Origin: Salinirubrum litoreum
Lineage (GTDB): Archaea; Halobacteriota; Halobacteria; Halobacteriales; Haloferacaceae
Direction of reading: 5' to 3'
Assembly: GCF_020567425.1 (NCBI RefSeq)
Contig: NZ_JAJCVJ010000001.1
Span: 1,116,001-1,180,000 of the forward strand
DNA length: 64,000 bases
Numbering within the stretch: the stretch's first letter is position 1; each line of letters starts with the position of its first letter. The translations under genes were made by a program, and so were the position numbers. Of the stretch, positions 15,512 through 45,260 are shown piece by piece. The notes under the pieces are model-generated. The model searched no databases. It had not been told where the DNA came from and saw only the letters and a program-made list of their open reading frames with translations.

Positions 15512-15594
15512 CGGTGGGACTGGGATTCGAACCCAGGAGGCCGAAGGCCACCTGCTTTCAAGGCAGGCGCAATAGTCCACTCTGCCATCCCACC
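15512..15594 (-). tRNA. tRNA-Ser (anticodon UGA)
   Basis: Minus strand, 83 nt. Acceptor GGTGGGA pairs with TCCCACC. The anticodon stem CCTGC/GCAGG encloses CTTGAAA with anticodon TGA. A long variable arm (tggccttcggcc) and T-arm CTGGGTTCGAATCCCAG follow, with discriminator G73. The long variable arm and G73 identify tRNA-Ser, decoding UCA and probably UCG. CCA is not encoded and there is no intron. Confidence 0.95.
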
Positions 15595-16879: not shown

Positions 16880-17440
16880 AGCCGCGACTGTGACAGCACC
16901 GCGAACCGCTCCCGCGACCGCACCAGCACCGCTACTCAGTCTAGCGCACCGACCAGCGGAACCGCGACAACACTGCACCTCGAACCTCCCCAGCCTCGGT
17001 CGGCGCTCTCCGCACCATCCGCGCCGACCTCCCTCGCGCGCTCCTCGCGCACGCCGACAGCACAGCACCACGGTTACTACCGTTCCACCACGGCTCACGA
17101 CACGCTTTCCAGTCAGACGGGCTGGCGCGAGTTCAGCTCGCGCCGACGGTTTCAGGTAGGCGCACACGCTGAAACCGACTGGTCCACCGAGTGTTGCGTG
17201 AGTCTCCGCGAAATCGCTGGGTGGGACTGGAAGGGGCCGGGCTCTCGATCCTGCCCCGACGCCGGTAGCCGGGCGGGACCGTCGGTCCCGCTGGAAACCG
17301 GCGTGGAGCGCCGGTGACAGAGCGAAGCCGGAAATATCGCCAGCAACCGGCGTGGAGCGCCGGTGACGAAGGTTCGTCAGAGCGTGCCGCTGACGGTGGT
17401 CGAGACGCCGGGGGCTTTCACCGCTCGTCGTCTGCAACTC
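16880..17440 (+). repeat. Dispersed structured element, copy 1
   Basis: Non-coding. Modules in order: CAGCACCGC-rich segment (16880-16985); CCTCCCCAGCC hairpin block (16985-17040) with stem GGTCGGCGC/GCGCCGACC; domain closed by CCAGTC and CGACTGGT (17108-17184) containing the hairpin GGCGCGAG/CTCGCGCC; box GTGGGACTGGAAGGGGCC (17221-17238); hairpin run including GCGGGACC/GGTCCCGC and two ACCGGCG/CGCCGGT hairpins; box GGGGGCTTTCACC (17410-17422) with a CGCTCGTCGTC tail. It fills the gap between 16787 and 17612. No protein frame with normal codon use is present. Confidence 0.75.
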
Positions 17441-20344: not shown

Positions 20345-21120
20345 TCTGTCGTGTCGGTCGAATCTGGCGTAGATAGCTCGGTCGAATCTGGCGTGAACGA
20401 CGAGAGATGAAAGCCCCCGCGCTCTCGACCATCCGCGACTTCCTGCGCGCCTCAGTCGGTCGAGCGAGCAAGCTCCTCTCCCTCCTTGCGGTGCTTAGTG
20501 CGTCGGGGATGGATCGAGAGCGCGGCCCCTTTCAGTCCCACCCGAATTTGTCTCTCATCGTGTCGTCACCGGTCGTCACCCGGCGTGCTGTCCGTAGGTC
20601 TGGAATCCGGCAGTCGCAGTCGTCCCCGAACCTCCCCGACTGCTGACGACGCGAACTGCGAGTCGGTTCTCGCTGTCGCTCGAACACGACTCGGTTTCGG
20701 TCGCCAGCAGATCGCGTCCTGTCGGACTCCGGGCTGTCGATGCGTGGGCCAGAGACGAGTGTGGCGTACGCTTTCACTCTGATCTCGGCGCGCGAGAAAC
20801 GCGCGAGGGAGGCGGGCGCTCTCGTGCGCCCGCCGAGGCTGGGGAGGACCGAGGTGCGGTTGCTGTCGCGGTGCTGTGCTGTGGCGGTCGCTGTCTGCGG
20901 TGCCGGTGCTGTCGCGGTTCCTCGCGCTACGACGAGTAGCGGTGCTGGTGCTGTGGCGGTATGCGGTTCGCGATGCTGCCACGCTTTCAGTTCCAGCCAC
21001 GCTTTCAGTTCCAGCCACGCTTTCAGTTCCAGCCACGCTTTCAGTTCCAGCCACGCTTTCAGTTCCAGCCACGCTTTCAGTTCCAGCCACGCTTTCAGTT
21101 CCAGTCACAGCCAATCACAC
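20345..21120 (-). repeat. Dispersed structured element, copy 2
   Basis: Reads right to left: seven 18-bp repeats (20978-21103), a CAGCACCGC-rich segment, CCTCCCCAGCC hairpin block (20805-20847) with perfect stem GGCGGGCGC/GCGCCCGCC, box GTGGGACTGAAAGGGGCC (20524-20541), and the terminal box GGGGGCTTTCA (20407-20418). The A-B stem CGCGCTCTCGATCCATCC pairs with GGATGGTCGAGAGCGCG. The ACCAGTCG-closed domain is missing. It is convergent with the aminotransferase gene and divergent from gyrB. The tail holds a 24-bp direct repeat (tcggtcgaatctggcgt twice, 20358-20395). Confidence 0.72.
20978..21103. repeat. Seven perfect 18-bp tandem repeats
   Basis: Unit gccacgctttcagttcca repeated seven times without a mismatch, 175 bp upstream of the gyrB promoter. 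On the minus strand each unit carries ACTGAAAG, also part of the conserved GTGGGACTGAAAGGGG box of the dispersed elements. The frames through it encode only Phe-Gln-Pro-Arg or Thr-Glu-Ser-Val-Ala-Gly repeats and are not taken as proteins. Confidence 0.97.
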
Positions 21121-29024: not shown

Positions 29025-29500
29025 GAAGTGAAAGCCCCCGTGAGATATGACAGCTGTCGAGCCGGGTGGCGACAACGAGGGGTGAAAGCCCCCGGCGTCT
29101 CGATGATCCGCGACTTGGTGCGCCCTTCCCTCAGGCTGGCGAGCAAGCTCGCCAGTCTTCAGTCCAGTGCTACCGGCGTCGGGGACCAGTCGAGACGCCG
29201 GCCCCTTTCAGTCCCACCCGGTGATTTCGCGGAGGCTCATGCAACGCCCGGTGGACCAGTCGCGTTCAGCGTGAGTGCCTCCCTGCGACCGTCGGCGTGC
29301 CTGAGGCGGCCTCACGCCGCCGAAGTGCGCGAGATGAACTCGCGCCAGCCCACTCGACTGGTGAGTGTGACGTGAGACGAGATTCTGTTGTGCTGTCGCT
29401 GTCGTAGTCTGCGGTGCTATCGCGGTCTGCGGTCGGGCTACCGGTGTCGTCTCCGAGGTCGTAGCCATCACAGTTCGCGGGAGCGAGACAGGCACCGTCA
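29025..29500 (-). repeat. Dispersed structured element, copy 3
   Basis: Reads right to left: a CTGCGGTGC-type low-complexity segment (29390-29470 on plus), domain closed by ACCAGTCG and CGACTGGT (29255-29362), box GTGGGACTGAAAGGGGCC (29200-29218), and terminal box GGGGGCTTTCACC twice, at 29081-29093 and 29027-29039, exactly 54 bp apart. The A-B stem GGCGTCTCGA pairs with TCGAGACGCC. The ACCAGTCG domain contains two hairpins (GGCGCGAG-type and GGCGGC/GCCGCC). The CCTCCCCAGCC block is absent. It is convergent with the EthD gene. Confidence 0.72.
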
Positions 29501-35899: not shown

Positions 35900-37074
35900 G
35901 ACTGTTACTGCGACACCACCGCTACTCGATACAGCGCACCTCCCAGCGGAACCGCGACCGCGACCCGAACCGCGAACCGCACCAGCACCAGCACCGCTAC
36001 TCGATCCGGGACAACCGGACTATTCGACCGCGACAGCACCGCAGACCGCATCCGCAACAGCGCCGCTACTCGTGCGAGCGCGAGGAACCGCACCGCAGAC
36101 AGCACCGCACCTCACACCTCCCCAGCCTCGGCCGGCGCTCTCCGCACCGCCCGCGCCGACCTCCCTCGCACGTCTGGCGAGAGCGACGCTCTCGCTGACC
36201 CTTGTCACCGGCGCGGAGCGCCGGTTGCTGGCGGGACCGAAGGTCCCGCTCTGTCGTCGGCGCGCCGCGCCGACTGCCAGCGAGACCCTCGGTCTCGCCC
36301 TGTTCGCAAGCTCACGAGGACGACTCCTCGCGCGCGCCGACCGCAAGGGCGCTACGTAGGCTCACGATTTAGAAATACACGAATATAGTTTTTCTACATT
36401 CGTAGGCTCGTATCACACGCACCAGTCGAGCGGGCTGGCGCGACCTCCGTGTCGCGCACTTCGGCGGCGTGCAGCCGCCTCAGACGAGCCGACGGTCACA
36501 GGGAGGCGCTCGCGCTGAACCCGACTGGTCTACCGCGAGTTGCGCGATGGGTCGCAGATTCCACCGGGTGGGACTGAAAGGGGCCGCGCTCTCGACCCTG
36601 CCCCGACGCCGGTAGCCGGGCGGGACCGTCGGTCCCGCTGGAAACCGGCGCGCCGCGCCGGTGACAGAGCGAGACCGGAGGTCTCGCCAGCAGACGGGCG
36701 AGGCGTGGCTCGCCCGTCAGCACCGCAGGGAGGGAGAGCCGGCTTGCCGGCTCGACCGACTGAGGAGCGTGGTTCGAGAGACGCCGTGGCGTCTCTCGTC
36801 ATCACGAGAGAGCTTCGCTCTCTCGAACGACACCAAGTCACGGCAGGTCGAGAGCGCGGGGGCTTTCACCTCTCGTCGTCCGCGACCCACCCGAAAACGA
36901 TTCTAGCGTCTTGGGGCTTTCACCTCTCGTCGTCCGCGACCCACCCGAAAACGATTCTAGCGTCTTGGGGCTTTCACCTCTCGCCGTCCACGACTCGGGC
37001 GACACCGATCACTTCGACTAGGGGCTTTCACCCATCGCCGTCCACAACTCACTCGACAGAATTCTCGTCTCGGG
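35900..37074 (+). repeat. Dispersed structured element, copy 4 (largest)
   Basis: 1.17 kb with no gene. Contents: CAGCACCGC-rich segment (35910-36110); CCTCCCCAGCC hairpin block (36117-36168); five or six small hairpins (36175-36350); an AT-rich 37-bp segment between direct repeats (36355-36409); domain closed by ACCAGTCG and CGACTGGT (36421-36529); box GTGGGACTGAAAGGGGCC (36568-36585); at least seven tandem hairpins; terminal box (36858-36870), then four exact 54-bp units (36859-37074). It ends two bases before the stop of the convergent phzF gene. Confidence 0.78.
36859..37074. repeat. Four 54-bp repeat units (CRISPR-like period, not CRISPR)
   Basis: Units start at 36859, 36913, 36967 and 37021, exactly 54 bp apart. 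Each begins GGGGCTTTCACC then a CTCGTCGTCC-like constant part of about 28 bp, followed by about 26 bp that are identical in units 1 and 2 and different in units 3 and 4. No cas gene is in the window and the repeat half drifts, so I do not call CRISPR. Confidence 0.85.
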
Positions 37075-44589: not shown

Positions 44590-45260
44590 CTCGGCCGCGA
44601 CAACACCAGCACTCCGACTACGACTACGACGAGTACCGCACCGCGAACCGCGACAGCACCGGCACCGCAGCCGCGACCACGACCGCACCAGCACCACAAC
44701 CGCGACCACGACAGCACCTGCAACGCTACTCGATCCGGTACAAACGGACTATTCGACCGCGACAGCACCCGCATCCGCCACCGCACCGCGAACAGCACCG
44801 CACCTCGGCCCTCCCCAGCCTCGGCAGACGCTCTCCGCACCGCCCGCGTCTGCCTCCCTCGCGCGTTTCTCGCGCGCCGGCCGCGACCACAACAGCATCG
44901 CCGCCTTTCCACCGAGACTCACGACACGATACCAGTCGAGAGGGCTGTCGCGCCGACGGTCGCAGGTAGGCCACCGCTGATCCGACTGGTCCACCGGGGG
45001 TTGCACGCGCCTCCGCAGATTCCACCGGGTGGGACTGAAAGGGGCCGGCGGTCTCGTGAACGAAGTGAACGAGACGTTGGAGAGCTTCGCTCTCCAGAAT
45101 CTCGACCCCTCCCGGACGCCCCAAGCACTGGACTGAACGAGAGCCGGCGTGCCGGCTCTCGTGAGGGAAGCGCGCAGGAAGTCCCGGAGGGGTCGAGACG
45201 CCGGGGGCTTTCACCCCACGTCGTCCGCGACCGACTTGACTAAATTCGCACTGACCCACT
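44590..45260 (+). repeat. Dispersed structured element, copy 5
   Basis: Contents: CAGCACCGC-rich segment (44590-44805); CCTCCCCAGCC hairpin block (44810-44862) with perfect stem GGCAGACGC/GCGTCTGCC; domain closed by ACCAGTCG and CGACTGGT (44931-44990), here without internal hairpins; box GTGGGACTGAAAGGGGCC (45029-45046); hairpins TGGAGAGC/GCTCTCCA and CGAGAGCCGGC/GCCGGCTCTCG; stem CTCGACCCCTCC/GGAGGGGTCGAG; terminal box GGGGGCTTTCACC (45203-45215) with a CACGTCGTCCGCGAC tail. It starts 13 bp after the UDG stop and points at the 3' end of the convergent reductase gene. Confidence 0.75.

Follow-up and report, generated by a model that had tools for sequence, protein, structure and literature searches.

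A haloarchaea-wide, transposase-free extragenic repeat with near-invariant boxes around a conserved one-strand hairpin

Bacterial genomes carry extragenic, high-copy, transposase-free hairpin repeats known as REP, REPIN and BIME sequences (PMC3116915). Haloarchaea contain numerous PATEs, which lack a transposase, terminal inverted repeats and target duplications, and which have near-terminal palindromes and core deletions (PMC3119063). Here, we describe a haloarchaea-wide, transposase-free, extragenic repeat in which two near-invariant boxes, A and B, surround an imperfect hairpin that keeps its pairing on one strand, the one running from A to B. One member, copy 4, lies with four sister copies in the window, a 64,000-nt stretch of 67.6% GC haloarchaeal DNA (G000:C1:1116001-1180000, G000 being the window's genome). 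Of the haloarchaeal genomes sampled, more than half contain the repeat, the richest with 132 copies, yet it stands outside Rfam and the literature searched. We found no published description of it in that literature, where PATEs are the nearest relatives, and it is apparently undescribed so far. The repeat is likely a non-autonomous mobile or conversion-driven extragenic DNA element, as we infer from the evidence below.

Copy 4 and its sister copies are laid out in the window as follows.

36423..36566, plus strand: upstream domain of copy 4, of type I (CCAGTCG .. CGACTGG), with the linker leading to box A
36567..36584, plus strand: box A of copy 4, GGTGGGACTGAAAGGGGC, its columns invariant in the class I alignment
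36584..36597, plus strand: closing stem of copy 4, 5' arm, CCGCGCTCTCGACC
36598..36845, plus strand: core of copy 4, nested hairpin modules within the conserved inner frame CCCCGAC..GTCACGG
36846..36859, plus strand: closing stem of copy 4, 3' arm, GGTCGAGAGCGCGG
36858..36870, plus strand: box B of copy 4, GGGGGCTTTCACC
36913..37032, plus strand: extra box B modules of copy 4 at 54-nt spacing (36913-36924, 36967-36978 and 37021-37032)
17220..17422, plus strand: copy 1, decayed; box A 17220-17237, box B 17410-17422
20406..20542, minus strand: copy 2; box A 20525-20542, box B 20406-20418
29081..29218, minus strand: copy 3; box A 29201-29218, box B 29081-29093, second box B 29027-29038
45028..45215, plus strand: copy 5; box A 45028-45045, box B 45203-45215

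From the outside inward, the element consists of a GAAAG/CTTTC pairing, a GGG/GGG internal loop, a stem of 12-14 bp and the conserved inner frame. In copy 4, the outermost pairing joins GAAAG at 36576-36580 in box A to CTTTC at 36863-36867 in box B, and the closing stem runs unbroken for 14 bp (36584-36597 with 36846-36859). A 12-bp stem is free of mismatches in copies 2, 3 and 4. The arm pairs that a first-pass annotation had quoted for the five copies were all located in the window, with two corrections. Copy 1 is decayed, with a mutated box A and an outer stem carrying two mismatches (chimeric arms), and in copy 5 a hairpin module of ~50 nt is inserted in the 5' arm, so that the stem is split. 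Box B recurs at steps of exactly 54 nt, occurring four times in copy 4 (window 36858-37032), and the same step is seen in other genome copies with diverged spacers; in a second genome, G322, the second B modules include the 3' stem arm as well. Periodicity around the element allows no firm reading, as values of 54, 24 and 27 are high in the tails and other multiples of 3 equally so. Upstream of most copies lies a second conserved haloarchaeal repeat (CCTCCCCAGCCTCG..CTCCCTCGCGCG, reverse GGTTGGGGAGG), found in the window at 36105-36340 and inverted and adjoining box A at loci L093, L096 and L116. Between this second repeat and the stop of the upstream gene is a T-poor, A/C-rich low-complexity tract, accgcgacagcaccgc (window 35900-36110), and similar tracts precede most genomic copies.

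Box A occurs five times in the window against 0 expected in window shuffles, and the 4.06-Mb genome G000 holds 90 matches at two mismatches or fewer against 1 control hit, which together exclude a chance origin. Inspection of 89 places in G000 yielded about 87 convincing copies. Their A-to-B distance ranges from 19 nt, where A is fused to B and the core is deleted, to 373 nt, and values cluster at 125-133. In more than 12 copies in G000, box B is present two to four times, spaced 54 nt apart. Similarity between copies extends 450-650 nt upstream of A and ~100 nt past B; the upstream domains are of two types, I and II, and the type I domain of copy 4 is common to about half of the copies. Head-to-head element pairs, joined box A to box A by a linker of ~26 nt, are frequent and BIME-like, and a tail-to-tail pair was seen once; paired elements lie at L153, L154, L158, L167, L172, L183, L186, L200, L213 and L224, and at L116. 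Beyond G000, box A (GGTGGGACTGAAAGGGGCC, at most one mismatch) is found in 217 of 392 genomes of the order and 68 of 95 genera, and holders among the matches listed include Halobaculum, Halorussus, Halonotius, Haloarcula, Halosimplex, Halomarina, Halohasta and Natronococcus. Copy number across the 392 genomes varies from 0 to 132, and within one genus from 1 to 73. No match was found in phage or IMG/VR collections, and spread by viruses was rejected; twelve haloarchaeal plasmids have one. The smaller G000 contigs (C3-C5, 0.87 of 4.06 Mb) hold just 2 of the 89 places (p about 1e-7, an optimistic value given that copies are related). TnpB-type IS genes are common on these contigs, where the repeat is nearly absent.

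The first-pass annotation had read the differing stems as compensatory change and hence as the mark of base pairing under selection, whether in RNA or in a DNA hairpin. The five copies alone are weak evidence for this because they carry only two stem alleles, CGCGCTCTCGA and CGGCGTCTCGA, and proof needs a wider set. Our class I alignment comprises 48 elements from many genera, with a structure of 30 pairs assigned by the analyst. In this alignment, 96.1% of stem cells pair, and 19 of the 30 pairs show double changes. Double-change cells number 216, compared with 58.0 +/- 8.3 after shuffling (0/500) and no more than 32 with the structure slid, although they are not independent events because core replacement and genome-wide homogenisation occur. 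Where the annotation had proposed R-scape on a wider alignment, we ran an R-scape-like, tree-aware test of our own, a G-test with average-product correction and 100 simulations along the maximum-likelihood tree. Eight pairs exceed the 95% maximum of the null, all of them within the structure and none outside. Class II elements keep the outer frame around a different core (GTCGTCT..CTATC..GATAT..AGCGACCGCGAGC), and have 86 double-change cells against 29.1 in shuffles (0/500). In addition, box A of G322 reads GGGGCA instead of GGGGCC in 65 of 67 matches, and the opposite side of the stem has changed to match in the copies read (AGCCGGCTCGA with TCGAGCCGGCT), so that a pair invariant in the alignment has turned from C-G to A-U on both sides, genome-wide.

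Significant covariation in a wide alignment, by class I, class II and the tree-aware test alike, supports the annotation's claim of a selected pairing. The single palindromic ancestor that it had weighed as an alternative fails, as the GGG/GGG loop, a C.C mismatch and asymmetric loops are conserved and there is no perfect palindrome; the occurrence of several pair types at the same stem positions across genera counts against it as well. Some of the differences in which both sides changed reflect replacement of the whole core between A and B or genome-wide homogenisation, and part of the signal between copies is therefore block replacement. Taken together, it is very likely that the structure is under selection on one strand.

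Comparison of related genomes indicates that copy number and positions are lineage-specific. Copy 4 adjoins a PhzF-like gene, near which no box A occurs in 29 relatives. Within one genus, eight genomes have an empty site (0-60 nt) at the abutting convergent gene junction L101, and three others have filled it by independent gains: G097 carries a class I element, G124 a class II element and G102 a class II element in reverse orientation. Along with the element, the inserted DNA brings 60-130 nt of sequence outside box A and 60-80 nt outside box B. At L098, in which four genomes share the element and G186 lacks it (30 nt), G041 and G074 have near-identical class I cores, G102 has another class I stem, and G136 has a class II core between homologous flanks. 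Cores are thus replaced between boxes A and B, from class I to class II, at a site where the element itself has been retained vertically. Both sites show presence and absence of the element at orthologous positions in one genus, as mobile elements do. Filled and empty sites were compared for the terminal inverted repeats and target duplication typical of a MITE; they reveal no clean duplication, and the element's boundaries are inexact. L109 offered no clean empty-site comparison. Homologous recombination between copies in polyploid haloarchaea could perform the core swapping.

The folding strand is identified by its wobble pairs. On the A-to-B strand, G.T exceeds A.C by 27:5 in the outer stem and by 56:11 in the whole class I structure, with p-values that are optimistic because the copies are related. 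This polarity, the ncRNA-family grade of the covariation and a lower RNA folding energy for the A-to-B strand in 52 of 73 copies would all suit a multicopy structured ncRNA family, acting in trans or as an RNP scaffold, transcribed in the A-to-B direction and spreading as a mobile or useful RNA. Of 24 intact type II copies, 8 also have a BRE/TATA-like site at a fixed place, ~240-260 nt before box A. In some type II copies, at L017, L018, L036 and L053, a canonical-looking haloarchaeal promoter, CGAAnnTTTTTATA, occupies a fixed place ~240 nt before box A and precedes a structured domain. However, among 45 intact type I copies, copy 4 (TTTAGA at -199) is the only one with any TATA-like word, so a promoter of its own is not a feature of most copies. 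Read-through mRNA also fails to explain the polarity, because copies in tandem contexts are 12 sense and 15 antisense. Apical loops on the A-to-B strand are mostly triloops; in class I elements from genomes other than G000, C(GNA)G accounts for 37 of 72 (RNA parameters), and GNRA or UUCG loops are absent among 310 loops (RNA parameters). GNA loops with closing G-C pairs form extraordinarily stable DNA mini-hairpins (PMC4686876), but the C(GNA)G loops are a hint and not proof of DNA, because under DNA parameters they make up just 15 of 96 loops. Rfam likewise gave no support to an RNA family: at the gathering score, the sole match in the whole window was a tRNA gene (15512-15594, minus strand), and seven loci searched at E<=1 returned nothing credible. 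Finally, the reverse transcriptase domain RVT_1 was found in 0 of 12 high-copy genomes, with 3 controls positive, leaving no obvious route for RNA-mediated spread. We accordingly consider the ncRNA explanation unlikely and an ordinary RNA gene less likely than folded DNA; we lean towards single-stranded DNA over RNA, perhaps 60:40. Retrotransposition was rejected on the same RVT_1 result.

The genomic context raises the possibility of a cis-acting gene-end device, such as a terminator, a 3'-UTR stabiliser or an insulator parting convergent transcripts. Nearly all of the ~87 copies lie between genes, with box B mostly 30-190 nt from the stop codon of the converging gene and box A mostly 400-700 nt from the next gene. 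Among the 68 copies with genes called on both sides by a simple composition-based caller, the neighbouring genes are convergent for 40, tandem for 27 and divergent for 1, and the independent gains at a single abutting convergent junction point the same way. Nevertheless, we find this explanation quite improbable. The 27 tandem copies have no orientation preference despite the strand polarity of the structure, most relatives do without the element at the same junction, and promoter avoidance is expected for any inserted repeat. Orientation relative to the replication strand shows no bias.

A relic or non-autonomous IS605/IS200-type transposon, that is, a PATE, is a natural candidate, since PATEs are likewise transposase-free, palindromic, core-deleted and numerous in haloarchaea (PMC3119063). 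Yet boxes A and B are missing from all 60 TnpB or Y1 loci examined, and no Y1 transposase (Y1_Tnp) is present in G104 (82 copies) or G041 (55 copies), both 99% complete, which makes such an origin very improbable. No gene recurs beside the elements in other genomes, and no linked integrase was seen beside them. A guide-RNA or TnpB omega-RNA was considered and rejected, as TnpB 3' ends in relatives look different and are without box A or B. Scarcely credible is a neutral palindrome kept perfect through arm-to-arm correction by template switching with no selection on structure, since, for all that homogenisation and core replacement do take place and nested hairpin modules are common, correction would erase the mismatches and asymmetric loops that persist across genera, and would predict no G.T over A.C bias. 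The near-invariant boxes also count against it.

Our best explanation, to which we assign a probability of about 0.5, is a mobile or conversion-driven hairpin element that folds single-stranded and whose structure is selected for its own propagation. The A-to-B strand would fold when single-stranded, during replication, repair or transcription, and a putative protein would recognise the boxes and the GGG/GGG loop. Copies would insert at gene-end junctions, recombination among dispersed copies would swap cores, and the folded hairpin would be selected for propagation of the element and not as a service to adjacent genes. This explanation is favoured because of the patchy high copy number, lineage-specific positions, empty and filled junctions, core exchange and G322 sweep, together with the G.T:A.C polarity, C(GNA)G triloops, lack of a general promoter or tandem sense bias, and A-B fusions. 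Weighing against it are the failure to find a mobiliser, the lack of a clean target duplication, exact boundary or replication-strand bias, the scarcity on small replicons (unlike a typical IS), vertical retention at some sites, and the C(GNA)G share under DNA parameters. The repeat probably represents a small mobile element, non-coding and obliged to fold as a single strand, and the chances that its mechanism proceeds via a folded DNA strand are about even. It is possible, if doubtful, that these repeats are haloarchaea-wide mobile ssDNA hairpin cassettes, with near-invariant boxes, interchangeable cores and a putative strand-specific recombination system unrelated to IS605/RAYT. Our results suggest that covariation of RNA-family strength may sit in apparent mobile DNA, a point that matters for the interpretation of conserved structure. 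With core exchange at a fixed site, empty sites and a compensatory sweep, the repeat also offers a tractable case for the transposase-less spread of archaeal extragenic hairpins.

The repeat shares strong covariation, conserved unpaired motifs and strand polarity with Rfam structured ncRNA families, and differs from them in having no Rfam match and no general promoter, and in its mobile-element-like copy-number variation and core exchange. In integron attC sites, too, conserved boxes frame the base of a hairpin formed by one strand, and its terminal part is variable. The likeness is in manner of working only, as the repeat forms scattered single elements instead of cassette arrays and no linked integrase was seen. 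With REP, REPIN and BIME sequences, it has in common extragenic, high-copy, transposase-free hairpins preferred at gene ends, deletion derivatives, tandem arrays, alternating-orientation pairs and a hairpin predicted in ssDNA or mRNA. It is thus an extragenic high-copy palindromic repeat as REP/REPIN sequences are, but without a linked RAYT (Y1-type transposase) or other Y1 enzyme, and it differs further in its longer core (~65-340 nt), conserved internal loops, exchangeable class I and class II cores, boxes unrelated in sequence and haloarchaeal host. Like the PATEs of Haloquadratum, it is haloarchaeal and transposase-free, with palindromes, heterogeneous copies, core deletions and no clear TIRs or target duplications; the ends of PATEs, compared here by their description, are IS605-like (PMC3119063), whereas boxes A and B occur at 0 of 60 IS605-type loci. 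By analogy, the repeat appears to work like REPIN or PATE elements, yet it departs from both in the features tested, namely the linked Y1 enzyme of the former and the IS605-like ends of the latter.
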